From positions 1 through 21,434 of IMG/VR virus record IMGVR_UViG_3300049737_000657: a stretch of 21,434 nt of DNA. The stretch is one strand, 5' to 3'. This document shows, in pieces, positions 5,452 through 20,350 of the stretch; within the stretch, counting starts at the first letter, position 1; every line of letters starts with the position of its first letter. The stretch comes from a virus. Position numbers and translations under genes: made by a program. The notes under the pieces are model-generated. The model had not been told where the DNA came from. It did no database searches and was given only the letters and a program-made list of their open reading frames with translations.

Positions 5452-5477
5452 TTATATTATAAAAAAGGTTATAAGTG
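5452..5477 (+). promoter_or_regulatory. Shared upstream element, copy 1 (polymerase gene)
   Basis: The element reads TTATATTATAA, one variable base, AAAGGTTATAA, then GTG. It matches copies before the gp32 gene (7289) and the gp41 gene (10974). The 3' half holds an AGG Shine-Dalgarno core six bases before the GTG start, so the element covers both a TATAAT-like box and the ribosome site. It could be a phage promoter with a very short leader or a translational operator of the RegA kind. Confidence 0.6.
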
Positions 5478-6800
5478 TTTTATATAGTAGAGCAAGAAGA
5501 AAAATTAATTAGTCTAGAGAAACTAGCTAGATTAGGAGTTTATGTAGATATTATACCTACTAATAACTACTTTCACCCTAAACTTAGCTCTACTGTTGCA
5601 ATCTACCTTAGACTTTTAGGTTCTGACCATGGGTATATTATTCCTATTAATCATAGCGAAGGTTTAAACGTATCAAAAGATCGTGTCTATGCTATTTTAA
5701 AAAAAGCAAGTAAGCTATATACTTTAAATAAAAAAGAACTACTCTACCACTTTAACTTACAGGATGCTATAGATATATCACTACTTTACTCTATGGTAAA
5801 ATTTGATAGATTAGAATTTACCTCGGAAAGTAATGCTTTAAATTACTTTTATAGTAAATTTAAAAGTTTTGATAAAGTAAATCAGTTAATTCCAATTTCA
5901 AAACTTTATGAAATAAGTTCAAAAAAATATGATCAAGTTAAAGAAGTTATAGGATACAGTATTCCAGAAGGATTTAATTTCTACAATAAAACCGCTACTA
6001 ATGTATTTTACTTATTAGAGCAATCAGGTTTGGGAGTTTTCTACGATAACTATATTGAAATGTTCAATCCTAATAACCCTTTATACAACACTATAGATAA
6101 TTCAGTATTAACTTTATACAATTTATATAATGCTACCTCCAGACCAACTAATGCTTTTAATAGCGTTAATTTCGCTGCTATTCCTAAGTCTCAACAACAT
6201 AGAAAAAGCTTCAGACCTCAAAACGACTACTTTATTGAGTTTGATTTTGACGGTTATCACTTGCGTTTACTTTGTGATCAGATTGATTATGCGCTAACTA
6301 ATGAGTCTGCTCATAAACAGTTAGCTAAACAGTACTTTAACAAAGAAGAAATTACAGAAGAAGAATATGATAAAGCAAAACAGATTAACTTTCATGCAAT
6401 TTACGGAAAAATCCCGGAGAAATACGCTTTTCTCGAAGTGTTTACAAAAATCGATGAATTTATCAAAGGTCTATGGACCGAATACGAAACTAACGGAAGA
6501 GTCTTGGCGCCAATTAGTAATAAACCGTTCACTAAAGCGTTAAAAGACATGAATCCTCAAAAGTTAATGAACTATATCATGCAATCGTTAGAGACTTCAA
6601 GAAATATTCTTATATTAAAAGAAGTACTAAGGTATCTACAGAATAAAAAGACTAATATAGTTTTATATACTTACGATGCGTTATTATTTGATTTTGATAA
6701 AGAAGACGGTAAAGAAACCTTGGAACAAATTAAAGAGATCTTAGAAGAAGATGGAAAATACCCAGTTAAATTTAAATACTCAAAAGATCTGTGTTTATAA
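5475..6800 (+). CDS. Divergent family A (Pol I-like) DNA polymerase with degenerate exonuclease domain
   Basis: This 441-residue protein carries the three family A palm and finger motifs. Motif A is EFDFDGYHLRLL with the metal aspartate at D257. Motif B is KAKQINFHAIYG (300-311), with K302, F306 and Y310 at the E. coli K758, F762 and Y766 positions. Motif C is YTYDALLF with D401. The MNYIMQS segment matches the Q-helix region. Residues about 20-115 follow the layout of a Pol I 3'-5' exonuclease domain, but the first D-x-E is D25-I-I and the second Asp is absent, so proofreading is predicted lost. Compared with E. coli Pol I, the steric-gate Glu710 aligns with H262, Arg754 with Y298, and His881-Asp-Glu883 with Y-D-A. 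It is much shorter than a Klenow fragment. The GTG start is preferred because AGG lies six bases upstream and no early in-frame ATG exists. Confidence 0.85.
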   Translation: MFYIVEQEEKLISLEKLARLGVYVDIIPTNNYFHPKLSSTVAIYLRLLGSDHGYIIPINHSEGLNVSKDRVYAILKKASKLYTLNKKELLYHFNLQDAIDISLLYSMVKFDRLEFTSESNALNYFYSKFKSFDKVNQLIPISKLYEISSKKYDQVKEVIGYSIPEGFNFYNKTATNVFYLLEQSGLGVFYDNYIEMFNPNNPLYNTIDNSVLTLYNLYNATSRPTNAFNSVNFAAIPKSQQHRKSFRPQNDYFIEFDFDGYHLRLLCDQIDYALTNESAHKQLAKQYFNKEEITEEEYDKAKQINFHAIYGKIPEKYAFLEVFTKIDEFIKGLWTEYETNGRVLAPISNKPFTKALKDMNPQKLMNYIMQSLETSRNILILKEVLRYLQNKKTNIVLYTYDALLFDFDKEDGKETLEQIKEILEEDGKYPVKFKYSKDLCL

Positions 6801-6819: not shown

Positions 6820-7278
6820 ATGATACAAGAAGCTATCGTAAAAGGTTTCGATTATGATATCGATCCCATTTATTTAAATGAAGATATGAGCAATAAACTT
6901 TTCTGTACCTTTGCTACTCAAGATACTTTAGATTCAGTCCTTGAGCAAGTCAAAGAAAGGTATAAAATCATATATAACAAAATCTTTGTTCTTTATTCAA
7001 AAAGCCAAGATGAGTATATATGTACTTATAATGTGGATTTCGGCAATGTAGGGTCTTTTTTAGAAAATACTATTTTAGTACACCGTAAAAAAGAATCAAA
7101 TACTCTCTATACGATTAATGCACTTAATACATTAATAAAAGAACTAAATGGAGGTGTTCTAGATACTTCTTATAGAATAAACTGGTTAGATTACCGCAAC
7201 TGTATACTACTTACAAAAGGGCCAGAACTTAAAAGAGTAAACACTAAACTTTACAAGATAATAGAGTTGGAGAACTAA
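6820..7278 (+). CDS. Small conserved-looking protein of unknown function in the replication block
   Basis: I cannot assign this 152-residue protein. It is soluble-looking, with no signal peptide or membrane segment. The N-terminal half mixes short strands (KLFCTFATQ, KIFVLYSKS, EYICTYNVDF). The C-terminal half has a distinctive run, ILVHRKKESNTLYTINALN followed by TLIKELNGG, then a WLDYRNCILL strand, which suggests a small globular domain under selection. The HRK motif and the basic stretch would suit nucleic-acid or regulator binding, but that is speculation. It starts 19 bases after the polymerase stop with only a weak ribosome site (AAAG) and lies before gp32. A small replication regulator is one possible role. 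Confidence 0.7.
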   Translation: MIQEAIVKGFDYDIDPIYLNEDMSNKLFCTFATQDTLDSVLEQVKERYKIIYNKIFVLYSKSQDEYICTYNVDFGNVGSFLENTILVHRKKESNTLYTINALNTLIKELNGGVLDTSYRINWLDYRNCILLTKGPELKRVNTKLYKIIELEN

Positions 7279-7324: not shown

Positions 7325-8122
7325 ATGGATTTAAATGCTATACGCGCAAAGCTGGATACGTTAAATAATAGCGGCCAGCAAAGAGAGAAAACAGATTATT
7401 CAAAAATATTTTGGAAACCTGAACTAGGTAAGCAAACCGTACGTATCGTACCTTCTGCTTATGATCCTACTTTTCCGTTTAAGGAATTAAAATTTCACTA
7501 CGGAGTAGGAAAGTACCCGATGGTAGCCTTATCAAACTTTGGTAAGCAAGACCCAATCGAAGAGTTCGTTAAAGAACTAAGAAAAACTAACGATAAAGAT
7601 AATTGGTCTCTATCAGGTAAACTTAACCCTAAAACCAGAGTTTTTGCTCCTGTTGTTGTAAGAGGAGAAGAAGATAAAGGTGTAAGACTATGGGGCTTTG
7701 GTATTACTATCTATAAAGCATTACTTGCTTTAGCAGAAGATGAAGATATCGGAGACTTCACAGACGTTATTAACGGATGGGATATGGTGGTAGAACAAGT
7801 ACAAGGTAATCCTTACCCTGAGACTACTGTTCGTATTAAACCTAAACAAACTCCTTTATCTGATAATAATGATTTAGTCGATACATGGATTAAGACTCAA
7901 CCTAATCCTACTGAAGTTCATACTGAGTATGATTACGACTTTATTAAAAAACAACTACAAAGTTATTTAAACCCTGGAGCTGAGGAGACTAGTACTCCTA
8001 CTGCAGGTGCTGAAACTAAGCCAGAAAGCACAAGTCCTCAAAAAACAGACTTTACTTTGGAAACAGCTACGGCTGGCAACCAAGACACAGTTAGTAAATT
8101 TGATGACTTATTTAATGAATAA
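7325..8122 (+). CDS. gp32: gp32-like single-stranded DNA-binding protein
   Basis: This 265-residue protein coats ssDNA during replication and recombination and contacts the polymerase, helicase and recombinase. The core has WKPELGKQTVRIVPS, then PFKELKFHYGV and RVFAPVVVRGEED followed by GVRLWGFG, the order of strands in T4 gp32. The last about 45 residues are a Thr/Ser/Pro/Gln linker ending in the acidic tip TVSKFDDLFNE. Such a tip is the usual partner-docking tail of phage SSBs. T4 gp32 binds zinc through three Cys and one His. This protein contains no cysteine at all, so the zinc site is absent. Its stop overlaps the uvsX start by one base (TAATG), so the two are probably translated together. 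Confidence 0.9.
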   Translation: MDLNAIRAKLDTLNNSGQQREKTDYSKIFWKPELGKQTVRIVPSAYDPTFPFKELKFHYGVGKYPMVALSNFGKQDPIEEFVKELRKTNDKDNWSLSGKLNPKTRVFAPVVVRGEEDKGVRLWGFGITIYKALLALAEDEDIGDFTDVINGWDMVVEQVQGNPYPETTVRIKPKQTPLSDNNDLVDTWIKTQPNPTEVHTEYDYDFIKKQLQSYLNPGAEETSTPTAGAETKPESTSPQKTDFTLETATAGNQDTVSKFDDLFNE

Positions 8123-9192
8123 TGGCGAAAAATAAAGAAGTACAACAAAAAGCGACCGCTGCTGTACGCAAGTCGTTTAATTTAGGTAATTTTAAGAAAA
8201 AGAAAGGTTTTGCTAATGCTTCTGTAAAGTTTAAGGAGCAAGGGTGGATACCACTCTCTAAAGCTTTTCAAGATATTACTTCCCTACCCGGTATTCCTAC
8301 CGGTCATATCACTCTCTTGCGTGGACATAGTGATACGGGCAAAACAACTGCCCTGATAGAAGCTGCGGTGAATGCTCAAAAACAGGGCATTCTCCCAGTC
8401 TTTATTGTTACTGAGATGAAATGGTCTTGGGAACATGCTAAAGAGATGGGTCTAGAGTTTAAGGAAGTAACTGATGCTAATGGTACTGTTATTGACTACG
8501 AAGGTCATTTCTTATACGCAGACAGAGGTCAACTTAATACTATTGAAGAGGTAGCGGTTTATATTGCCGATCTTATGGACGAACAAGCTAAAGGTAACTT
8601 ACCTTACGATATGTGTTTCTTCTGGGATAGTATCGGTTCAGTACCTTGCGATTTATCAGTACGTTCTAATAAGAATAACAACGAATGGAATGCAGGTGCT
8701 ATGTCTACTCAGTTCGGTAATAATCTTAATCAGAAGATTCTATTATCTAGAAAAGAGAACTCACCCTATACTAATACGTTAGTAGCTATTAATAAAGTAT
8801 GGACTATGAAACCTGAATCGCCTATGGGTCAACCTAAGCTTCAGAACAAAGGTGGAATGTCTATGTGGTATGATGCTACTTTAGTAGTTACTTTCGGTAA
8901 CATAACTAATCCAGGTACATCTAAGATTAAAGCTATTAAAGCTGGTATGCAGGTAGAGTTTGCTAAACGTACTAACGTTCAAGTAGAGAAGAATCATATC
9001 GGCGGAGTACAGTCAAGAGGTAGAATAGTAATGACACCTCATGGTTTTATAGCTGATGATAAGAGAGATATAGATAAATATAAAGATGCCCATAAAGATC
9101 ACTGGTTAAAATTAGTTGGCTCAGTAGACTTCGATTTAATTGAAGAAGGAGATTTAGAGGAAACCCCGATTACTCCTAATATTCTTGATTAA
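8122..9192 (+). CDS. uvsX: UvsX/RecA-type recombinase
   Basis: This 356-residue ATPase drives strand invasion for recombination-dependent replication. Walker A is GHSDTGKT at 68-75. Walker B is YDMCFFWDSIGSV with D169 at its end. An IVTEMKW segment (about residue 100) supplies the glutamate-bearing strand after Walker A. Residues about 185-245 (NNNEWNAGAMSTQFG and NTLVAINKVW) resemble the L1 and L2 DNA-binding loop region. The length is close to T4 UvsX (about 390) and bacterial RecA (about 350). The N-terminus (1-35) is basic. It lies between gp32 and RNase H with one-base TAATG overlaps at both ends. RecA of bacterial origin is less likely because the spacing and loops follow the phage type and the neighbours are T4-core genes. 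Confidence 0.9.
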   Translation: MAKNKEVQQKATAAVRKSFNLGNFKKKKGFANASVKFKEQGWIPLSKAFQDITSLPGIPTGHITLLRGHSDTGKTTALIEAAVNAQKQGILPVFIVTEMKWSWEHAKEMGLEFKEVTDANGTVIDYEGHFLYADRGQLNTIEEVAVYIADLMDEQAKGNLPYDMCFFWDSIGSVPCDLSVRSNKNNNEWNAGAMSTQFGNNLNQKILLSRKENSPYTNTLVAINKVWTMKPESPMGQPKLQNKGGMSMWYDATLVVTFGNITNPGTSKIKAIKAGMQVEFAKRTNVQVEKNHIGGVQSRGRIVMTPHGFIADDKRDIDKYKDAHKDHWLKLVGSVDFDLIEEGDLEETPITPNILD

Positions 9193-10205
9193 TGCCGTAC
9201 GATAAAATTCTAAAGAATTTAAAGGAGACCCCACCCCGAGCCCTTAATGATCATATTTTGATCGTTGATGCGATGAATACCTTAATAAGGTCTTTTTCAC
9301 TGCTCAAAGCGATGAACCCATCAGGTGCCCATATAGGGGGCCTGGTAGGGTTTCTTCGTTCTTTAGGGTATATAACTCGGATATTTGATCCTACTAGGGT
9401 GGTTATAGTATGGGACGGTAAAGGAGGATCTTCAAATAGAAAAAATATAGACCCTAACTATAAAGCACAGCGTGCTACTAGTAGAATTACCCATTGGGGG
9501 CTATATGATAATAAAGAAGAAGAAACCGAAGCTTTAATAGGACAATTATTTAGAACTCAAGACTACTTAGAATGCTTACCAGTACAACAATTGACTATGG
9601 AAAAGTTAGAAGCTGATGATATAATGGCTTATCTAGCTAAAAGAGCATCTAATGCGGGTAAAAAAGTTACTATAGTCTCTTCTGATAAAGATTTTTTACA
9701 GTTAGTAGATGACAATATAGAAATATATGCTCCGGTCAAGAAAAAAACTTTTACAAAAAATAATATATTTGAAGAAATAAAAGTACTACCTACAAACTTC
9801 AACCTAGTAAAAGCATTACTAGGAGATAATTCTGATAATTTACCAGGAGTCAAAGGATTAGGTATAAAAACTGTAGTAGCAGAGTTTCCTAAATTACTAA
9901 CTGAAAAAACAGACTTAGATTATATATTTAAAGTTGCAGAAGAAAAATTAGAAGGTAAAAAGATATTTGCAAAAATCATACACAGCTGGGATAGAGTAGA
10001 GACTAATTTTAAATTGATGGATCTACATGATACTTCTTTAGATGATAAAGAAATAAAATATGTAGAAGATATTTTTAAAAGCAATATACCTAAATTACAG
10101 ACAGGAGTATTTTTATCTCTATTAGACCAAGATAAAATAGAAGGTATTACCAAAAATACAGAAGGTTGGTTAGAAAATTTTAGAGGGTTAACTACAGTAA
10201 AATGA
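9192..10205 (+). CDS. rnh: RNase H-like 5'-3' exonuclease (FEN/T4 RNase H family)
   Basis: This 337-residue nuclease removes RNA primers and flaps from lagging-strand fragments. The acidic residues expected for the two-metal site are all visible: D26 (ILIVDAMN), D75 (VVIVWDG), E140 with D142 and D143 (KLEADDIMAYL), D165 and D167 (SSDKDFLQL), and D212 with D215 (LLGDNSDNLPG). The last pair leads into a helix-three-turn-helix, GVKGLGIKTV. A basic bridge region (NRKNIDPNYKAQR) follows D75. The length is slightly above T4 RNase H (305). It overlaps uvsX by one base and the next gene by four (ATGA), so it is part of the same coupled unit. Confidence 0.92.
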   Translation: MPYDKILKNLKETPPRALNDHILIVDAMNTLIRSFSLLKAMNPSGAHIGGLVGFLRSLGYITRIFDPTRVVIVWDGKGGSSNRKNIDPNYKAQRATSRITHWGLYDNKEEETEALIGQLFRTQDYLECLPVQQLTMEKLEADDIMAYLAKRASNAGKKVTIVSSDKDFLQLVDDNIEIYAPVKKKTFTKNNIFEEIKVLPTNFNLVKALLGDNSDNLPGVKGLGIKTVVAEFPKLLTEKTDLDYIFKVAEEKLEGKKIFAKIIHSWDRVETNFKLMDLHDTSLDDKEIKYVEDIFKSNIPKLQTGVFLSLLDQDKIEGITKNTEGWLENFRGLTTVK

Positions 10206-10558
10206 ATTATAAGTCATTAATTTTAGGATTGATATTATTTCTTGTGGCACAGTCACTTGCATGGTTTCAAACAAACGGTCAGTTTTTAAGTTCATGGGTA
10301 AAGGATCATCCTATACTTGTTTCAGGCCTTATGGGTATTCCCGTAGGAGCATCGTATATATTTGGTACTACTTATATTGTAGAATTTTTTAACGGACAAC
10401 TATGGCCGTCTAGAATTATTGCTTTTGCTACCGGTATATTTAGTTTTTATATTCTGACTTTAATTTTTATGAAAGAAGGAATAAATATTAAAACTGGTAC
10501 TATATTAGTTCTGGCATCAATGATTATAATTTTACAGGTCTTTTGGAAGTATGAATAA
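10202..10558 (+). CDS. Small four-helix membrane protein of unknown function
   Basis: This 118-residue protein has four likely transmembrane segments at about 5-22, 38-62, 71-90 and 98-115. Short polar links separate them, including QTNGQF, a GQLWPSR turn and KEGINIK. No enzyme motif or signal peptide is seen. It overlaps the RNase H gene by four bases (ATGA) and the nucleotidyltransferase gene by eight bases, so it is co-expressed with DNA-replication genes. Membrane anchoring of the replication machinery, or an effect on the host inner membrane, are inferences. It does not look like a holin, because it sits outside a lysis context. Confidence 0.75.
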   Translation: MNYKSLILGLILFLVAQSLAWFQTNGQFLSSWVKDHPILVSGLMGIPVGASYIFGTTYIVEFFNGQLWPSRIIAFATGIFSFYILTLIFMKEGINIKTGTILVLASMIIILQVFWKYE

Positions 10559-10973
10559 AGCTATAATAGTTAGCGGATATTTTAACCCTCTGCATAAAGG
10601 TCATATTGAATTATTTGAAATATCTAAAGCTATAGGGGATATGCTTATAGTTATTGTAAACTCTGATTTACAGAGATTTTTAAAAGGAAGTAAGGAATTT
10701 CAGCTTGAACAAGAAAGGTTAGAAATAATCAAAGCTATAAAATATGTAGACTGGGCTATGATTTCTATAGACAAAGACAAAACTCAGAATGAAAGCATTG
10801 AAGAGGTTTACGAAATTTATAAAGATACTCATAAATTAGCATTTGCTAATGGAGGAGACCAAAATAATGATACTATCCCTGAGTCTAAAGTTTGTAGGAA
10901 ATTAGGTATAGAATTAATAGAAGGTTTAGGAAATAAAATGCAATCAAGCAGTTGGTTATTAGATAAAAAATAA
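10551..10973 (+). CDS. HxGH nucleotidyltransferase (cytidylyl/adenylyltransferase-like)
   Basis: This 140-residue single-domain enzyme has the nucleotidyltransferase signature GYFNPLHKGH, with HKGH at 15-18, right at the N-terminus. Near the C-terminus are a FANGGDQNN loop (about 104-112) and GLGNKMQSSSWLL (about 125-137). The serine run matches the S-S-S/T motif that binds nucleotide phosphate in glycerol-3-phosphate cytidylyltransferase and in the adenylyltransferase domain of heptose enzymes. The reaction is transfer of an NMP to a phosphorylated sugar or polyol; the exact substrate and nucleotide cannot be read from sequence. It may supply activated sugar to the glycosyltransferases about 4.2 kb downstream, although it sits inside the replication block. 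NMN adenylyltransferase is an alternative. Confidence 0.82.
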   Translation: MNKAIIVSGYFNPLHKGHIELFEISKAIGDMLIVIVNSDLQRFLKGSKEFQLEQERLEIIKAIKYVDWAMISIDKDKTQNESIEEVYEIYKDTHKLAFANGGDQNNDTIPESKVCRKLGIELIEGLGNKMQSSSWLLDKK

Positions 10974-10999
10974 TTATATTATAACAAAGGTTTTAAATG
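10974..10999 (+). promoter_or_regulatory. Shared upstream element, copy 3 (gp41 helicase gene)
   Basis: This copy reads TTATATTATAA, C, AAAGGTTTTAA, then ATG. It occupies the whole gap between the preceding stop (10971-10973) and the helicase start. Spacing from AGG to the start codon is six bases, exactly as in the polymerase copy at 5452. Perfect retention of the TTATATTATAA half in all three copies makes chance unlikely even in AT-rich DNA. Confidence 0.6.
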
Positions 11000-12334
11000 A
11001 CATTAAAGAGTTTACAGCAGTACGGCAAGGGGTTTCAATTAAAGGTTTTAGGATCGTTACTTACTGATAAAAAGTTTCTTCTAAACGTAAGAGACGTGTT
11101 ACATGATCATTACTTCGACGCCGATTCTCATAAATGGATAATCAACCAGATTTGTGAATACTTTGACAAATACCACACTAACGTTACTATGGATGTTCTT
11201 AAAGTTGAACTTCAAAAGTTAGAAAATGAAGTACTTCAAGTAGCTTTAAAAGAAGAGTTAAGAAACTCCTATCAAGCTACACAAGACGATTTAGAATATG
11301 TACAGGAAGAGTTTCAAACTTTCTGTAAGAATCAAGAAATGAAAAACGCTATACTTAACTCAGCCGATCTACTTAAAGAAGGAGACTTCGATGGTATTAG
11401 AAATCAGGTGGAAAAAGCTATGAAGGCAGGTATGGACAAAAATATGGGACATGAATATAATAAAGATATTGAAACTAGGTATAGAGTTAATTACCGTCCT
11501 ACCATTCCTTCTCCTTGGCCTATTCTTAATGATGGTATTCAAGGTGGGTTCGGTCCTGGCGATCTGGGTATTGTTTTTGGTAACCCTGGTGGCGGTAAGT
11601 CATGGTGTATGGTTGCTATTGCTGCTCATGCTGTCTCTCTTGGTTATAAAGTTAATTACTATACGCTCGAGCTCGGAGAGGACTATGTGGGTAAAAGATT
11701 TGACTGCTACTTTACAGGATACTCTATTGATGAGGTTAATAAACACCGTAAGGAAGTCCAAACGTATGTAGATAATCTTAAAGGTAAATTAATAGTTAAA
11801 GAATACCCTCCTAAAGGAGCTACAGTTAATACTATTAAATCTCATATACAGAAATGTATGGATATGGAGCATAAACCTGATTTAGTAGTTATAGATTACG
11901 TAGATTATTTAAGGGCTCCTTCAAGAGGAAAAACTTTTGAAAGAAAAGACGAAATAGATGATGTGTTTATAGCTACTAAAGGATTAGCTAAAGAATTAAA
12001 AATACCAGTATTAACTCCTTCTCAGGTAAATAGAATGGGGGCTAGGGATAATGTTATTGAGGGGGATAAAGCAGCAGGTAGTTACGATAAAATGATGGTA
12101 GCAGATATTTGTTTATCTCTATCTCGTCAGAAGGAAGATAAAGTTCTTGGAACTGGAAGAGTACACGTTATGAAGAATCGTTACGGACAAGATGGAATGA
12201 CTTATAACGTAAAAATGGATACTAATAATGGACATATTGAATTCGATGGTAAGGCAGATCCTGCAGACTTATTAGAGGAAACTAATAAACCTAAGTTTAA
12301 TTTGTCACGTGAAACTTTATCCAAATTAATATGA
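10997..12334 (+). CDS. gp41: gp41/DnaB-type replicative helicase
   Basis: This 445-residue hexameric helicase unwinds the fork ahead of the polymerase. An N-terminal helical domain (1-150) begins GFQLKVLGSLLTD, the usual DnaB-family opening. The RecA-like motor has Walker A GNPGGGKSW (195-203), a YYTLELGED strand carrying the catalytic glutamate region, and Walker B PDLVVIDYVDYLR. Next come LTPSQVNRMG (sensor-like Q) and a C-terminal RVHVMKNRYGQDG with the arginine-finger region. Length is close to T4 gp41 (475). It is the last gene before a likely terminator. The ATG is preceded by AAAGG at six bases. No fused primase domain is present, so a separate primase must lie elsewhere. Confidence 0.92.
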   Translation: MTLKSLQQYGKGFQLKVLGSLLTDKKFLLNVRDVLHDHYFDADSHKWIINQICEYFDKYHTNVTMDVLKVELQKLENEVLQVALKEELRNSYQATQDDLEYVQEEFQTFCKNQEMKNAILNSADLLKEGDFDGIRNQVEKAMKAGMDKNMGHEYNKDIETRYRVNYRPTIPSPWPILNDGIQGGFGPGDLGIVFGNPGGGKSWCMVAIAAHAVSLGYKVNYYTLELGEDYVGKRFDCYFTGYSIDEVNKHRKEVQTYVDNLKGKLIVKEYPPKGATVNTIKSHIQKCMDMEHKPDLVVIDYVDYLRAPSRGKTFERKDEIDDVFIATKGLAKELKIPVLTPSQVNRMGARDNVIEGDKAAGSYDKMMVADICLSLSRQKEDKVLGTGRVHVMKNRYGQDGMTYNVKMDTNNGHIEFDGKADPADLLEETNKPKFNLSRETLSKLI

Positions 12335-15158: not shown

Positions 15159-16436
15159 ATGGCAAAAAGAGATACAATTTTTATCTCTATAGCAAGTTAT
15201 AGAGACAAAGAACTACTACCAACTATTGAAGACTGTTTAGAGCAGGCTGAATACCCCGATAGATTAAGATTTGGAATATGCTGGCAGCATAGTAAAGAAG
15301 ATCTGTGGGACAATTTAGATTTATATAAAAATGATAAAAGATTTCATATAGTTGATGTAGACTATAAAGACTCTAAAGGAGCATGCTGGGCTAGACATCA
15401 GATTCAAAAGTTTTATGATGACGAAACTTACTCTTTACAGCTAGATTCTCATCATAGATTTATTGAGAAATGGGATGAGGAATGTATTAAGATGTACAAA
15501 CTTGCAATTAAACAAGGATACCCTAAACCTTTACTAACTACTTATTTAGGTTCTTATTTTCCAGATAAAGATCCAAAGGATAGAGAAAAAAATGTATGGT
15601 ACTTATGTTTTGATAGAATAGCTCCAGAAGGACCTCTTCATACTAAACCACATACATTAAATGAATGGGAAACATTAGAAGGACCTATACCTCATAGATT
15701 TTTCTCAGGTCATTTTGCTTTTACTGACGGTAAGTTTCAAGAAACCGTCTTATATGATCCAGCTCTTTATTTTCATGGTGAAGAAATTACTATGGCGGTA
15801 AGAGCTTATACTCATGGTTATGATTTACTTTGCCCCCATAAACCTCTAGCCTATCATTATTATGAAAGAAATGACGGAGTTAAGCATTGGTCTGATCACG
15901 ATTTTGATTTGCGAGATAAAGTCTCATTTTCTAGAGTAAGAACTTTACTAGGAGTAGGAAAACCTAAATGTAGGCCGTGTGTATTGAAGCAATTAGAACC
16001 ATATGCTTTAGGAAAAGAAAGAACTATAGTGGACTATGAACAATATGCAGGAATAGATTTTACTACTAAAAGAATACAAAAGCATACTTTAGATCATTTT
16101 TATCCTCCTAACCCAACTAACTTTGAGACAGTTGATGGATATGGCGATTCGTTTTTACATTACAATAAGTATATAGTGGACGTTCATTCGTCTCATTTTA
16201 ATGAAGATGATTATGAATTTTGTGTATTATCTTTCGAAGGTGAAGAACCTGAAGATGTTATTTTTAGAGAAGACATAAAAGGTAAAAACTTATTAGATTT
16301 AATAGAAAATGCAAAAGGAGGTTTTTTACAAATTGAAAAAGACTTTTACGGTAGAGAACCATATAAACTAATTGTATGGCCTTACAGTAAAAAAAATGGT
16401 TATGTTGAAAGATTTGAACATATTTTTCCTCGGTAA
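15159..16436 (+). CDS. GlcNAc-transferase-like glycosyltransferase, paralog 1
   Basis: This 425-residue protein belongs to the family of Skp1-type GlcNAc transferases. The N-terminal strand IFISIASYRDKELLPTIEDC opens a GT-A fold. The metal-binding motif is QLDSHHRF (94-101), with D96 and H98. FSGHFAF (about residue 180) and YFHGEEITMAVRAYTHGYD complete the family pattern of acceptor loop and catalytic Glu pair. Residues about 260-425 form a second region, containing LGKERT, DYEQYAG and a PPNP stretch, then a beta-rich tail. Its paralog follows after two bases with the same architecture. The expected product is sugar addition from a nucleotide sugar; the acceptor (virion protein, host glycan or DNA base) is unknown. 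The weak ribosome site suggests translation coupled to nrdA. Confidence 0.82.
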   Translation: MAKRDTIFISIASYRDKELLPTIEDCLEQAEYPDRLRFGICWQHSKEDLWDNLDLYKNDKRFHIVDVDYKDSKGACWARHQIQKFYDDETYSLQLDSHHRFIEKWDEECIKMYKLAIKQGYPKPLLTTYLGSYFPDKDPKDREKNVWYLCFDRIAPEGPLHTKPHTLNEWETLEGPIPHRFFSGHFAFTDGKFQETVLYDPALYFHGEEITMAVRAYTHGYDLLCPHKPLAYHYYERNDGVKHWSDHDFDLRDKVSFSRVRTLLGVGKPKCRPCVLKQLEPYALGKERTIVDYEQYAGIDFTTKRIQKHTLDHFYPPNPTNFETVDGYGDSFLHYNKYIVDVHSSHFNEDDYEFCVLSFEGEEPEDVIFREDIKGKNLLDLIENAKGGFLQIEKDFYGREPYKLIVWPYSKKNGYVERFEHIFPR

Positions 16437-16438
16437 TA

Positions 16439-17713
16439 ATGAGCAAAAATTCTATCATATTTTTACATTTACCAGCATATAGAGAACCTGAGCTTTTACC
16501 TACTATAAAAGATGCTCTTTCTCAAGCTAAATATCCGCAAAGATTACATTTTGGTATCTGCAGGCAGTATGAACCTTCTGACGGATTTGACGATTTAACT
16601 GAATATAAAAAGAATCCTAACTTTCATATACATGAAATGCTCGCTAAAGACGCTCAAGGTTTACCTTATGCAAGAGCTATAATAAATGAAAAGTTATTAA
16701 CTAATCAAGATTACGTACTACAATTAGATTCACATCATAGGTTTGTGAAAGATTGGGATGAGACGTTAATTAATATGCATGAAGGGTTAGAAAAGAAAGG
16801 CTATAGACCTATACTTACCGGATACTTACCAGAATACAAGCCCTTTGAAGAACCTGAAGGAAGAGCAGATTGCCCATGGTTGAGTATACCTAATTGTTTC
16901 TATCCTCACGGTACTATTTTTATTCAACCTACTAAATTAGAAGGATGGGAAGATTTAACTGAACCTGTACCTTCTCGTTTTATTTGTGGTCATTTTGCTT
17001 TTGCTAGAAATAAATGGGCCAAAGAAATTAAACATGACCCAGATTTATATTTTTCTGGAGAAGAGATTAATTTAACTGTTCGAAGTTTTACTCACGGATA
17101 TGATCTATTTCATCCTCATAGATTAGTTATATGGCATGCTACTATGAGAGAAGAACGGGATGGTATTTTAGTATGGGATGACCAAGCAAAGGCTGGTAAT
17201 GAAATGTACTGGAAAAAGCAAGATTCTGGTAGAGCAAAGATAAGACAATTATTTAGAGTAGAAGATAATGGATTTGATTTAACTGGGTATGATTTAGGTA
17301 AAGAACGTACATTTAGAGACTATGAGATATATGCTGGTTTACATTTTAAAAACAGAGCAATGCAGCAACATACTTTGGATATGAAGTATCCTCCTAATCC
17401 TATTATAGGAGAAAATGAAGAAGAGTGGGAAGAATCTTTTTCGAAATCTCATTATCATTTAGTTAATATAGATCCTAATTTTTTCAGTAAAAAAGATTAT
17501 GATTTTATATTAGTAGCTTTTGACGATAAAAATGGAAAAAGTATCGAAAGTATATTTATAGATGATAGCAGGTTATCAAAGTTTTTAGAAAATGGAACTC
17601 CTATTCACTTCGAACAAACCTTTATGAGCGTAGAGCAACCAACTAGGGTAGTATACTGGGCACATAGCAAGAGTGAAGGATGGGCAGAAAGGCAAGAATT
17701 TGAGTATAAATAA
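16439..17713 (+). CDS. GlcNAc-transferase-like glycosyltransferase, paralog 2
   Basis: This 424-residue protein has the same domain order as the gene before it: IIFLHLPAYREPELLPTIKD, QLDSHHRF at 95-102 with D97 and H99, FICGHFAFARN, FSGEEINLTVRSFTHGYD, then LGKERTFRDYEIYAG and a beta-rich end. The two copies are clearly homologous but well diverged outside the motifs, so the duplication is old rather than an assembly artefact. Both keep the catalytic residues, which suggests two different acceptors or successive transfers. The tail of each (a strand pattern ending VVYWAHSKSEGW or LIVWPYSKKNGY) looks like a separate binding domain. The stop overlaps the next ATG by one base. Confidence 0.82.
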   Translation: MSKNSIIFLHLPAYREPELLPTIKDALSQAKYPQRLHFGICRQYEPSDGFDDLTEYKKNPNFHIHEMLAKDAQGLPYARAIINEKLLTNQDYVLQLDSHHRFVKDWDETLINMHEGLEKKGYRPILTGYLPEYKPFEEPEGRADCPWLSIPNCFYPHGTIFIQPTKLEGWEDLTEPVPSRFICGHFAFARNKWAKEIKHDPDLYFSGEEINLTVRSFTHGYDLFHPHRLVIWHATMREERDGILVWDDQAKAGNEMYWKKQDSGRAKIRQLFRVEDNGFDLTGYDLGKERTFRDYEIYAGLHFKNRAMQQHTLDMKYPPNPIIGENEEEWEESFSKSHYHLVNIDPNFFSKKDYDFILVAFDDKNGKSIESIFIDDSRLSKFLENGTPIHFEQTFMSVEQPTRVVYWAHSKSEGWAERQEFEYK

Positions 17714-18654
17714 TGAAGTATATACTCTACCATAATCATAATGCAACTATGTTTCAGTCTACTGTTTTGGATAGAGTGGCTAATACTATTATAGAGAAGT
17801 ATCCGGAACATGAATTCGAGATTATTGATCCTCATCCTAAATATGAGAAATTATACCCAAATTGCGGACCAGGATGTAAATACAGCAATCATCATTATCT
17901 TTATATACTTAACCCAGATACAGGTAAATACTTTCTATTTTCTTTTTGGGATAGGTTAGAAGATATAGTTAATATCGACCCTACTGTTACTGGTTGGGAT
18001 ACTGAGAATATAGTTGAAATATTTACCTCATGTGGAGTAACTGATTTATTTTGTCACCAATTAATTCCATCCTTAGACGAAGCATACACTCCCTGGTGTT
18101 ATACTTATAATAATCCTCGATTACATGAAAGTTTAGATACATATAAAAGTATGGCTAAAAAATTTATTCCCAGTAAACCTTCTTTTAATGGTTCAGTCTA
18201 TTCCTTTAGAGAATACCTTACTAAAGACAGTAGATTTAATGTAAGTTCAGATATTCTCGAAGAAGAAAAATATTATACTTGGTTAGCTTCTAATAAAATA
18301 AATTTTAATATAAATGGCGCTGGAGAGGTATGTCATAGAGATATGGAAATACTAGCTGTAAAATCAGCTCTTTTTAGAGAAAAACTTAATAGTAAATTCC
18401 ATAACAACTTGATACCTGATTACCATTACATAAGCGTAGACTGTAGTGATTTAAAGCGTACTGAGCAATACGAGGGTTTATATAAAGCCAAAGCTGATAG
18501 AATTTTAGATAGATATAATGAAGTTATAAAAGATCCTGAATATTTAGAGTTTGTTGCTGATAATGGACACCAATGGTGGTTGGATAACAGTAAGATAGAT
18601 AGTATAGCTAATATTTCAAAAAAATTAATTAATATAGATAAGTTAGATGAATGA
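17713..18654 (+). CDS. Probable sugar-transfer protein of the surface-glycan cassette
   Basis: This 313-residue protein is not firmly assigned. The segment FNINGAGEVCHRDMEILAV (about 198-216) and LIPDYHYISVD (about 233-243) resemble the nucleotide-sugar-binding half of GT90/exostosin-like glycosyltransferases, in which an Arg-Asp pair and an I-P-x-x-H-Y-I strand are typical. The N-terminus (MKYILYHNHNA, then an IDPHPKYE region) and the Cys-rich PNCGPGCKYSNHHY stretch (about 49-64) are unusual. No membrane segment or signal peptide is visible. It lies between two glycosyltransferases and a carbamoyltransferase, overlapping its neighbours by one and eight bases, which supports a shared pathway. 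Without a structure comparison the enzymatic role stays an inference. Confidence 0.6.
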   Translation: MKYILYHNHNATMFQSTVLDRVANTIIEKYPEHEFEIIDPHPKYEKLYPNCGPGCKYSNHHYLYILNPDTGKYFLFSFWDRLEDIVNIDPTVTGWDTENIVEIFTSCGVTDLFCHQLIPSLDEAYTPWCYTYNNPRLHESLDTYKSMAKKFIPSKPSFNGSVYSFREYLTKDSRFNVSSDILEEEKYYTWLASNKINFNINGAGEVCHRDMEILAVKSALFREKLNSKFHNNLIPDYHYISVDCSDLKRTEQYEGLYKAKADRILDRYNEVIKDPEYLEFVADNGHQWWLDNSKIDSIANISKKLINIDKLDE

Positions 18655-20350
18655 TTTTTATATTCTCGGTATTAATGGTTCCCATAATGGCGGTATTACA
18701 GTTGCCAAAAACGATAAGGTAGTTTTAACATTAGAGTTTGAACGTTTATTTAATGAAAAAAATGTAGGGTTAGCCCAATATAAAACAATCAAAGGCTCAG
18801 ATATAGTCTTTATGATGAAGTATATTTCTAAATATATTTTAAATTATTTTGGAATTAAAAAATTTAATAAGATAGTAGCATTAAATACAGGAGTAAATTT
18901 TGGTCAAGGACAAGACCAAGAAACTTATATAGCTGAGAATTATATACCAGCCGACGAGTATATTTACGGTCATCACCATGCTGCTCATGCATTTAATGTT
19001 CTTTATACTTCTCCTCATGATAAGGCGTTGATAGTCTCATTTGATGGAGGGGGAAACGATGGATTTTTTAATGTATATTTAGGAGATAAGAAAAATAAAA
19101 TAAGTGATAAGTACGATCATATAGACTTATTAGAAACAGTTAAACATCCAAATGCCGGGAGTCCTCATGTATTTTTAGACTTAGGTTTACCTTATGCATC
19201 TTTCGGAGAAGTTTTACAAGATATAAGAAGAGAAGGAGACTTATCTAACGGTATACTTGTATACCCAGGTAAAATTATGGGATTAGCTTCGTATGGTGAA
19301 GTTAGAAAAGAATGGTTAGATAGATTTATTCAGTACTATATTGGTAATGTACATCAAGGTAATAGTTATGTAGATCACATGAAAAATTTATTTGATGATT
19401 TAAAAATAGAACATAACGATACCCTTTTTCACAACCGATATGAAGAAGATAGACTTTCAGGCAAAGTAGCATACGATATTGCTGCTACTTCTCAAAAAGC
19501 ATTTGAAGAAGCATTTTTAGTATTTGCTAAACCTTGGATGGAACGTTATAATGATATACCTATGTGTCTAGCGGGAGGATGTGGATTAAATATTATACTC
19601 AACACTAGACTTAAAGAAGAATTTGGTAGAGAAGTATTTGTAGGACCTGCTCCTAGTGATTGCGGAATTAGTACAGGACTATGCTTACAAGAGTTAAAAC
19701 CTAAAATACCTGCTGATATTACTTATGCTGGATTACCTTTATTAGACCCTAATTCTGTTTTTGAACATATTAACGACCACTGGTGGTTTACAAGTCACGA
19801 TGTAGATGAAGGTGATATAGTAGATAGTTTAGCAAAAGGAGAAATTATTGGACTTATAAAAGGCAACTCTGAACATGGACCTAGAGCTTTAGGAAATAGA
19901 AGTATATTATGTAATCCTTCTATTAAGAAAATGAAAGATATACTCAATGAAAAAGTTAAAAATAGAGAGTTTTATAGGCCTTTTGCCCCTGTTGTAAGAT
20001 TAGAAGATGTTTCAGAGTATTTTGAATTTGAAGGAGAGTCAAGATGGATGACTTTTTGTCCTAAGGTAAGAACAGAATGGAGAGAAAAATTAGCAGCTAT
20101 TACCCACGTTGATGGTACTGCTAGAATTCAAACTATTACTAGAGAGCAAAATACTTTCTTATACGATTTAATTTCTAAATTTAAAGATAAAACAGGCATT
20201 GGAGTTTTATTAAATACTTCATTTAATATAGCTGGTAAACCTATTACTAATACTGTTAAAGACGCAATGACTTTATTTAGAGATACAGAACTAGATAAAC
20301 TGATAATTAACGACATATACTTTAAAAAATGCCAAAAAACGTTACTATAG
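18647..20350 (+). CDS. NodU/CmcH-type O-carbamoyltransferase
   Basis: This 567-residue enzyme transfers a carbamoyl group, made from carbamoyl phosphate and ATP, to a hydroxyl group, commonly on a sugar. The N-terminal half has the ILGINGSHNGGITV opening, the metal- and nucleotide-binding HHHAAH (109-114) and SFDGGG (131-136). LAGGCGLN and VGPAPSDCGIS follow. The C-terminal YrdC-like half has GNSEHGPRALGNRS (406-419) and FYRPFAPVVR. These match TobZ/CmcH/NodU order and length. The overlap with the gene before is eight bases and with the gene after is 22 bases. Carbamoylation of a glycan made by the flanking transferases is the simplest role; modification of a DNA-linked sugar is possible. Nothing appears truncated. 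Confidence 0.92.
   Translation: MNDFYILGINGSHNGGITVAKNDKVVLTLEFERLFNEKNVGLAQYKTIKGSDIVFMMKYISKYILNYFGIKKFNKIVALNTGVNFGQGQDQETYIAENYIPADEYIYGHHHAAHAFNVLYTSPHDKALIVSFDGGGNDGFFNVYLGDKKNKISDKYDHIDLLETVKHPNAGSPHVFLDLGLPYASFGEVLQDIRREGDLSNGILVYPGKIMGLASYGEVRKEWLDRFIQYYIGNVHQGNSYVDHMKNLFDDLKIEHNDTLFHNRYEEDRLSGKVAYDIAATSQKAFEEAFLVFAKPWMERYNDIPMCLAGGCGLNIILNTRLKEEFGREVFVGPAPSDCGISTGLCLQELKPKIPADITYAGLPLLDPNSVFEHINDHWWFTSHDVDEGDIVDSLAKGEIIGLIKGNSEHGPRALGNRSILCNPSIKKMKDILNEKVKNREFYRPFAPVVRLEDVSEYFEFEGESRWMTFCPKVRTEWREKLAAITHVDGTARIQTITREQNTFLYDLISKFKDKTGIGVLLNTSFNIAGKPITNTVKDAMTLFRDTELDKLIINDIYFKKCQKTLL

Follow-up and report, generated by a model that had tools for sequence, protein, structure and literature searches.

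The window analysed here (the whole stretch of 21,434 nucleotides of viral DNA) encodes a compact family A DNA polymerase that is a member of divPolA1, a published family whose description we take to be the work of Yutin and colleagues. We propose, with a probability of about 0.6, that divPolA1 serves large T4-like phages as a second, accessory family A polymerase, catalytically competent but specialised, which would be held by partner proteins and fill gaps. The family forms a clade with a His gate in every member examined and two further substitutions in the dNTP site, and thus offers a natural test of rebuilt sugar selection. Many aquatic phages appear to carry an ordinary DNA polymerase together with a small second one with such fixed substitutions in its pocket.

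divPolA1 was described from 14 phages, including the immuto group, as an extra PolA beside a regular family A, B or C polymerase (PMC11348598, Virol J 2024). In that description, the thumb is truncated, the exonuclease is inactivated by replacement of all three catalytic Asp residues, and both the main catalytic residues of the palm and the downstream genes are conserved; the replication-gene context was taken as a sign of a role in replication, the functionality of the regular enzymes being less obvious. The window protein has in common with divPolA1 (PMC11348598) the homology over the full length, the presence of an extra polymerase, the truncated thumb, an apparently degenerate exonuclease and the replication genes downstream, which in the window encode gp32, UvsX, a 5' nuclease and a DnaB-type helicase. 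In the literature searched, the term divPolA1 is confined to that article and its preprint. The word "steric" is absent from the main text of the article (the Figure 5 alignments and supplements aside), and neither "710" nor "steric" occurs in Nasko 2018 (PMC6302109). On this literature, the His/Tyr/Tyr/Asp signature described below and its breadth may be unpublished, Figure 5 and the supplements of PMC11348598 aside. What is added here to PMC11348598 is that signature and several hundred relatives from IMG/VR.

The polymerase of the window (Table 1) scored 40.9 bits against Pfam DNA_pol_A (curated cut-off, 34.3), and its match to PHROG 17 was weak (E 2.4e-5); at E ≤ 1, the Pfam profile matched 13 of the 27 members of the family alignment A3. 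By tblastn, the protein was 59.4% identical to gp001 of Flavobacterium phage immuto over 441/441 residues (E 1e-172), and its dN/dS against five close relatives was about 0.13–0.17. An AlphaFold2 model, with 27 family sequences as the input alignment, had a pLDDT of 91.9 and a pTM of 0.90. The top Foldseek match of this model in the PDB was the Klenow fragment (E 3.5e-16), and the Bst Pol I large fragment aligned to the whole model, residues 1–441, with a Z score of 26.4 and an rmsd of 4.3 over 411/441 residues. The fold, the catalytic Asp pair and the equivalents of R668, K758, F762, Y766 and Q849 are common to the window polymerase and the Klenow and Bst large fragments. In contrast, the canonical Pol I-type signature of Glu710, Arg754 and His881 is replaced by His, Tyr and Tyr in the window polymerase, the thumb is a short segment, and the D705–D882 span is shorter.

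Table 1. Coordinates of the polymerase, its segments and motifs, and the operon neighbours in the window
Feature	Position	Strand	Basis or remark
divPolA1-type compact family A polymerase, 441 aa	5475..6800 including stop (ORF 5475-6797)	+	GTG start
N-terminal domain, residues 1-181, at the place of the Pol I 3'-5' exonuclease domain	5475..6017	+	judged inactive
E182-R223 segment at the thumb position, truncated	6018..6143	+	anchor spacing
Motif A DFDGYHLR: D257 catalytic, D259 (=Ser707), H262 (=Glu710 gate)	6243..6266	+	alignments
Motif B / O helix: Y298 (=Arg754), K302, F306, Y310, G311	6366..6407	+	alignments
Motif C YDA: Y400 (=His881), D401 catalytic, A402 (=Glu883)	6672..6680	+	alignments
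Conserved 152-aa protein, operon neighbour	6820..7278	+	no Pfam or PHROG match
gp32-like single-strand DNA binding protein	7325..8122	+	Pfam gp32 4.1e-10
UvsX-like recombinase	8122..9192	+	phrog_97 1e-16
5'-3' exonuclease (Pol I 5' nuclease type), separate gene	9192..10205	+	Pfam 5_3_exonuc_N 2.4e-33
DnaB/gp41-like replicative helicase	10997..12334	+	phrog_19 5.8e-75

The active-site residues were paired with those of E. coli Pol I by an hhalign profile-profile alignment (probability 95.9, E 5.2e-9) and by aligning 63 palms jointly with MAFFT. The two alignments agreed on the pairs that the initial annotation had proposed (D257=D705, H262=E710, Y298=R754, K302=K758, F306=F762, Y310=Y766, Y400=H881, D401=D882 and A402=E883), and bore out its reading that D257, D401, K302, F306 and Y310 are kept and that Glu710 is exchanged for His, and Arg754 and His881 for Tyr. 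On these sequence and profile alignments, H262 is assigned to the steric-gate position. Numbered from the GTG at 5475, all of the listed codons fall inside 6231–6680: D257 at 6243 (GAT), D259 at 6249, H262 at 6258 (CAC), Y298 at 6366, K302 at 6378, F306 at 6390, Y310 at 6402, Y400 at 6672, D401 at 6675 and A402 at 6678. In addition, the Ser707 position is occupied by Asp259, which was absent from the initial annotation.

The exchange of Glu883 for A402, which had been listed as an anomaly, proved to be ordinary, since the canonical sequences have E (8), Q (8), S (6) or A (5) at position 883 (n = 27). An acid relocation, in which the change of Ser707 to Asp would offset that of Glu883 to Ala, was set aside as weak, because A, S or Q occupies position 883 in many of the canonical phage PolAs although they lack Asp707. 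The equivalents of R668 and Q849 (R223 and Q370) are kept in the window polymerase. R668 and H881 matter for the kinetics of Pol I, and mutation of H881 costs about tenfold in kcat (PMC11122685); by analogy with Gln1102 of Pol gamma, Q849 would be the third member of an R668-Q849-H881 set, in which Tyr400 would replace His881.

The conservation of the pocket was counted in 296 homologues including the window protein, which are best-ranked subsets of longer lists and comprise 134 sequences of group A (window/immuto), 81 of group B (Mel-JY01), 80 of group C and one jumbo sequence. Tblastn gave seven phage records, namely four immuto phages (59% identity), LR756508 (32%), Mel-JY01 (28%) and one gut clone; the gut clone was rejected as a family member, as it proved to hold a canonical PolA. 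LR756508 is an unannotated 484-kb phage record. In Microcystis phage Mel-JY01, the protein (L003:14938-16158) is annotated as hypothetical and was missed by PF00476 at E 0.001, yet is a clear family member. From IMG/VR, the best 80 of 186 relatives were taken with the window protein as the query, the best 80 of 109 with the Mel-JY01 protein, and the best 80 of at least 592 with a mixed alignment ranked on LR756508; an alignment query matched at least 600 stretches with at least 586 relatives, of which the best 80 were taken and 51 were new. With the LR756508 protein as the sole query, the IMG/VR scan yielded no relatives, and one relative was found among 84,980 bacterial and archaeal genomes, in a MAG contig. 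Two canonical PolAs (L004 and L085) were left out of the 216-row alignment before the counts.

D257, D259, H262, K302, F306 and Y310 were each found in 296/296 sequences, Y298 and Q370 in 295/296 (one Met and one Glu, respectively), and Y400 and D401 in 295/295 (one gap), and the position of A402 held A in 210 and S in 85 (n = 295). After removal of redundancy at 90%, 175 sequences were left with a median pairwise identity of 31%, and 31 of the 441 columns reached 98%; the other groups are about 27–32% identical to the window polymerase. The invariance of the pocket residues at this median identity therefore indicates that the pattern is not due to chance. Close relatives with Glu at the gate and His-Asp-Glu in motif C, which would speak against the reading of the initial annotation, were looked for, and no relative with Glu at the gate was present among the 296 examined from the best-ranked subsets of the scans.

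The search patterns made from the window protein contained none of the residues in question, and all of their 80 loci have His (84/84 rows). For the other three scans, one pattern included the gate; a gate-free pattern also fits 26/51, 21/80 and 1/80 of their loci, all with His. The invariance of the gate is thus well shown for group A, fairly for group B and hardly independently for group C, because one search pattern contains the gate His and a single group-C locus fits the gate-free pattern. A survey of IMG/VR with a DNA pattern of motif B gave mostly chance matches, with a PolA in 4/80 loci, all of which have Glu710/Arg754/His881.

In family A enzymes, the gate Glu is generally regarded as invariant. 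A canonical sample of 28 sequences (E. coli, T7, Staphylococcus phage P108, phages from tblastn lists, four viral contigs, a gut clone and regular PolAs of divPolA1-type phages) had Glu710 in 28/28, Arg754 in 28/28 and His881 in 27/27, and never Asp at 707; this sample is not random, since eight of the sequences are the regular PolAs from phages with a divPolA1, and an identical palm is shared by two viral contigs. In a tree from which the five trait columns were dropped, the 35 family representatives formed a single branch with an SH-aLRT of 99, and one change of the gate label sufficed; the tree was made by a quick method, with long branches flagged by the program and a root that was not inferred, and crAss cr116, whose frame has no motif C, was left out. 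RM378, which has a split polymerase, was dropped as a comparison, since its polymerase reads as family B, to which we take the motif DFTSLYPS to belong.

For divPolA2 (AUR84708, Vibrio phage 1.063.O), which like divPolA1 is an extra divergent PolA with neither the usual thumb nor the exonuclease (PMC11348598), Glu is kept at the gate (DFKAFE) and motif C is FDE, unlike divPolA1. In the immuto phage, the regular PolA (gp199) is a family A enzyme encoded in the same genome as divPolA1. Unlike divPolA1, it has the exonuclease motifs, keeps Glu710, Arg754 and His881, and has Leu762, and in the tree it groups with Listeria phage LP-037 and not with divPolA1.

For the N-terminal domain of the window polymerase, DxE is absent from the first strand, and the exonuclease is judged to be dead on this basis. 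Four acid-conserved columns (E6, E62, D100 and E146) are left in residues 1–180, which the profile alignment did not reach. Fewer than 100 residues precede E182 in 11/294 homologues, all of group C and at least one possibly truncated where its contig stops, and much of the domain is therefore missing there. The distance between the anchors E541 and R668 (E182 and R223 in the window polymerase) is 23–41 residues with a median of 37 in 294 family members, compared to 125–269 in the 28 canonical sequences; judged by this spacing, the thumb is all but gone in the family. The D705–D882 span is 137–147 residues in 295 members, compared to 164–270 in 27 canonical sequences.

Operon conservation was counted with the window and Mel-JY01 proteins as queries in the 157/295 loci with 4.5 kb downstream of the polymerase. 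The gp32-like gene and UvsX were each found in 61/61 group-A, 47/47 group-B, 46/48 group-C and 1/1 jumbo loci, the gp32 label in groups B and C and in the jumbo locus resting partly on a Mel-JY01 hypothetical protein that is a putative gp32. The 5' nuclease was found in 60 A, 41 B, 37 C and 1 jumbo loci, and the gp41 helicase in 57, 36, 34 and 1, respectively; every counted match lies on the same strand as the polymerase. In 61/61 group-A and 47/48 group-C loci and in the jumbo locus, an ORF close to the polymerase had the 152-aa neighbour as its top match, and as a query this neighbour matched an ORF in 274/295 loci. This protein has a conserved HRKK..NTLYTINxLN stretch and a fairly confident model (pLDDT 86.7), for which Foldseek gave no match with E < 0.001 and the best VIA-align result was Z 6.5 over 67 residues; it may be a partner subunit of the polymerase. 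A cytidylyltransferase-like (NMNAT-type) gene (10551-10973, + strand) also lies inside the replication operon and is found in 38/61 group-A loci.

Of the 39 records checked, 27 encode a further polymerase belonging to family A, B or C (9/10 in group A, 9/14 in group B, 1/1 jumbo and 8/14 in group C). In group A, PF00476 detected a full-length regular PolA in 9/10 records (open frames of 775–804 codons), the tenth record being a 54-kb contig. One of these (G002) is a 91-kb contig from the same virus as the window and encodes a regular PolA with an open frame of 804 codons; over 12,970 bp, a stretch of this contig (L006) and the window share 99.98% identity. The group-A regular PolAs have the exonuclease motifs DTET, HNASFD and YAxADTD together with E710, R754, K758, Leu762 and HDQ. 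PF00136 (family B) matched in 9/14 group-B records including Mel-JY01, in pieces in the jumbo record and in 8/14 group-C records; for the 14 group-C records, PF00476 found the compact protein alone, in 8/14. A search with PF07733, which covered the 25 records outside group C, gave a PolIII alpha match in the jumbo record and one in a MAG (G009), presumably from bacterial DNA. The 12/39 records in which a second polymerase was not found (G008, G013-G017 and six group-C contigs) are all fragments. One contig with a divPolA1-type polymerase lies inside a bacterial MAG (L140, CALMEO010000055.1), with the regular PolA on another contig of the bin.

Because a regular polymerase co-occurs with it, the window polymerase is probably an accessory enzyme and not part of a clade of replicases. 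Of the initial proposal of a distinct clade of phage replicases, the distinct clade is thus retained, with its SH-aLRT of 99 and single gate change, and the replicase role is not.

The immuto phage is annotated with QueC, QueD, QueE, QueF, FolE and DpdA; the last belongs to the 7-deazaguanine pathway and acts after DNA synthesis. DpdA homologues were found in 9/9 group-A, 0/7 group-B, 0/1 jumbo and 1/5 group-C records, the last being a weak match of 24% identity. Judged by the 7-deazaguanine pathway, the suggestion that the enzyme tolerates modified nucleotides does not hold as a general cause of the pocket, and 7-deazaguanine was rejected as such a cause, because DpdA goes with group A only, apart from the weak group-C match, and the same gate is present in all groups. 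The divPolA1 clade might yield enzymes for use with modified nucleotides. The DpdA matches G002:C1:37267-38061 and G004:C1:42001-42795 each contain one in-frame stop (TAA and TAG, respectively), possibly at the end. A DnaG homologue was found in all three whole phage records and in 5/19 records overall, 16 of the 19 being viral contigs and possibly fragments. Priming therefore needs no stand-in in the three whole phage records, and replacement of the primase was rejected as a general role.

The conservation of the metal-binding Asp residues, R223, K302, Y310 and Q370 argues for catalysis, and two-metal nucleotidyl transfer would be retained with D257 and D401. His/Tyr/Tyr and D259 would form a rebuilt nucleotide pocket that was fixed once in the family, with His262 probably taking over the gate function next to Phe306 and Tyr310. 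With neither thumb nor proofreading, the enzyme would synthesise DNA locally and over short distances, with gp32, UvsX, the 5' nuclease, gp41 and perhaps the 152-aa protein keeping it in position; it might, for example, fill gaps or elongate 3' ends at recombination intermediates and at RNA primers after their processing. divPolA1 would thus resemble a Pol I with the 5' nuclease as a separate gene, a division of labour read from gene order alone, and bulk copying would be left to the regular polymerase of family A, B or C, depending on the lineage. The co-occurring regular polymerase, the conserved operon, the single clade, the shortened thumb and the invariance of the active site support this accessory role. 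They also raise the question of why a second polymerase with neither thumb nor recognisable proofreading lies inside the core replication operon. A bolder reading, which we put forward only tentatively, is that the His gate, Asp707 and Tyr754/Tyr881 make a second kind of pocket, with a sugar or primer selectivity unlike that of any studied Pol I, by which very common aquatic phages, equipped with a replicase of its own kind for the rest, would initiate or complete short DNA-RNA junctions.

The operon itself speaks against the accessory role, in that divPolA1 has a more "replicative" gene context than the regular polymerase does. divPolA1 might be the main replicase or one half of a two-polymerase replisome, with the regular polymerase as the accessory enzyme: it lies in a conserved replication operon in groups A, B and C and in the jumbo phage, the family of the other polymerase varies by group, and divPolA1 is held to be involved in replication (PMC11348598). 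However, the thumb is all but gone, recognisable proofreading motifs are lacking and three pocket residues are changed, whereas the group-A regular PolA keeps the thumb, these motifs and the canonical pocket residues, and we consider the replicase reading unlikely. At the other extreme, divPolA1 could have lost catalysis altogether, its polymerase fold being retained as a replisome scaffold or loader. The truncated thumb and degenerate exonuclease would suit such a function, as would the loss of Arg754 and His881, which help bind the dNTP and the primer end. This reading is very improbable, since both metal-binding Asp residues and the equivalents of R668, K758, Y766 and Q849 are kept across the groups, the Asp, Lys and Tyr residues with no exception.

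The loss of Glu710 could also mean that the enzyme tolerates the sugar and inserts or extends ribonucleotides, for example on RNA-DNA primers as a starter enzyme. The Glu replaced in 296/296 homologues is the gate of Pol I, as Glu480 is in T7 (PMC13228545), and the gene lies beside those of the helicase and gp32. However, His is bulky, and in E. coli DnaE a His (H760, in the fingers) is presumed to act as the steric gate (PMC8485763), so that an exchange of Glu for His need not mean the loss of the gate, although the likeness is one of chemistry and not of position, H760 belonging to another part of DnaE. Since Phe306 and Tyr310 are kept as well, and a DnaG homologue is present in the three whole phage records, sugar tolerance seems doubtful, and we favour the accessory, gap-filling polymerase.

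Elsewhere in the window, a NodU-type carbamoyltransferase gene (18647-20350, + strand) matched NF041651 at 1e-46, but with 159.9 bits against a cut-off of 1000. The ORFs upstream of it (15159-17713), which gave no NCBIfam match, look by eye like related glycosyltransferases.
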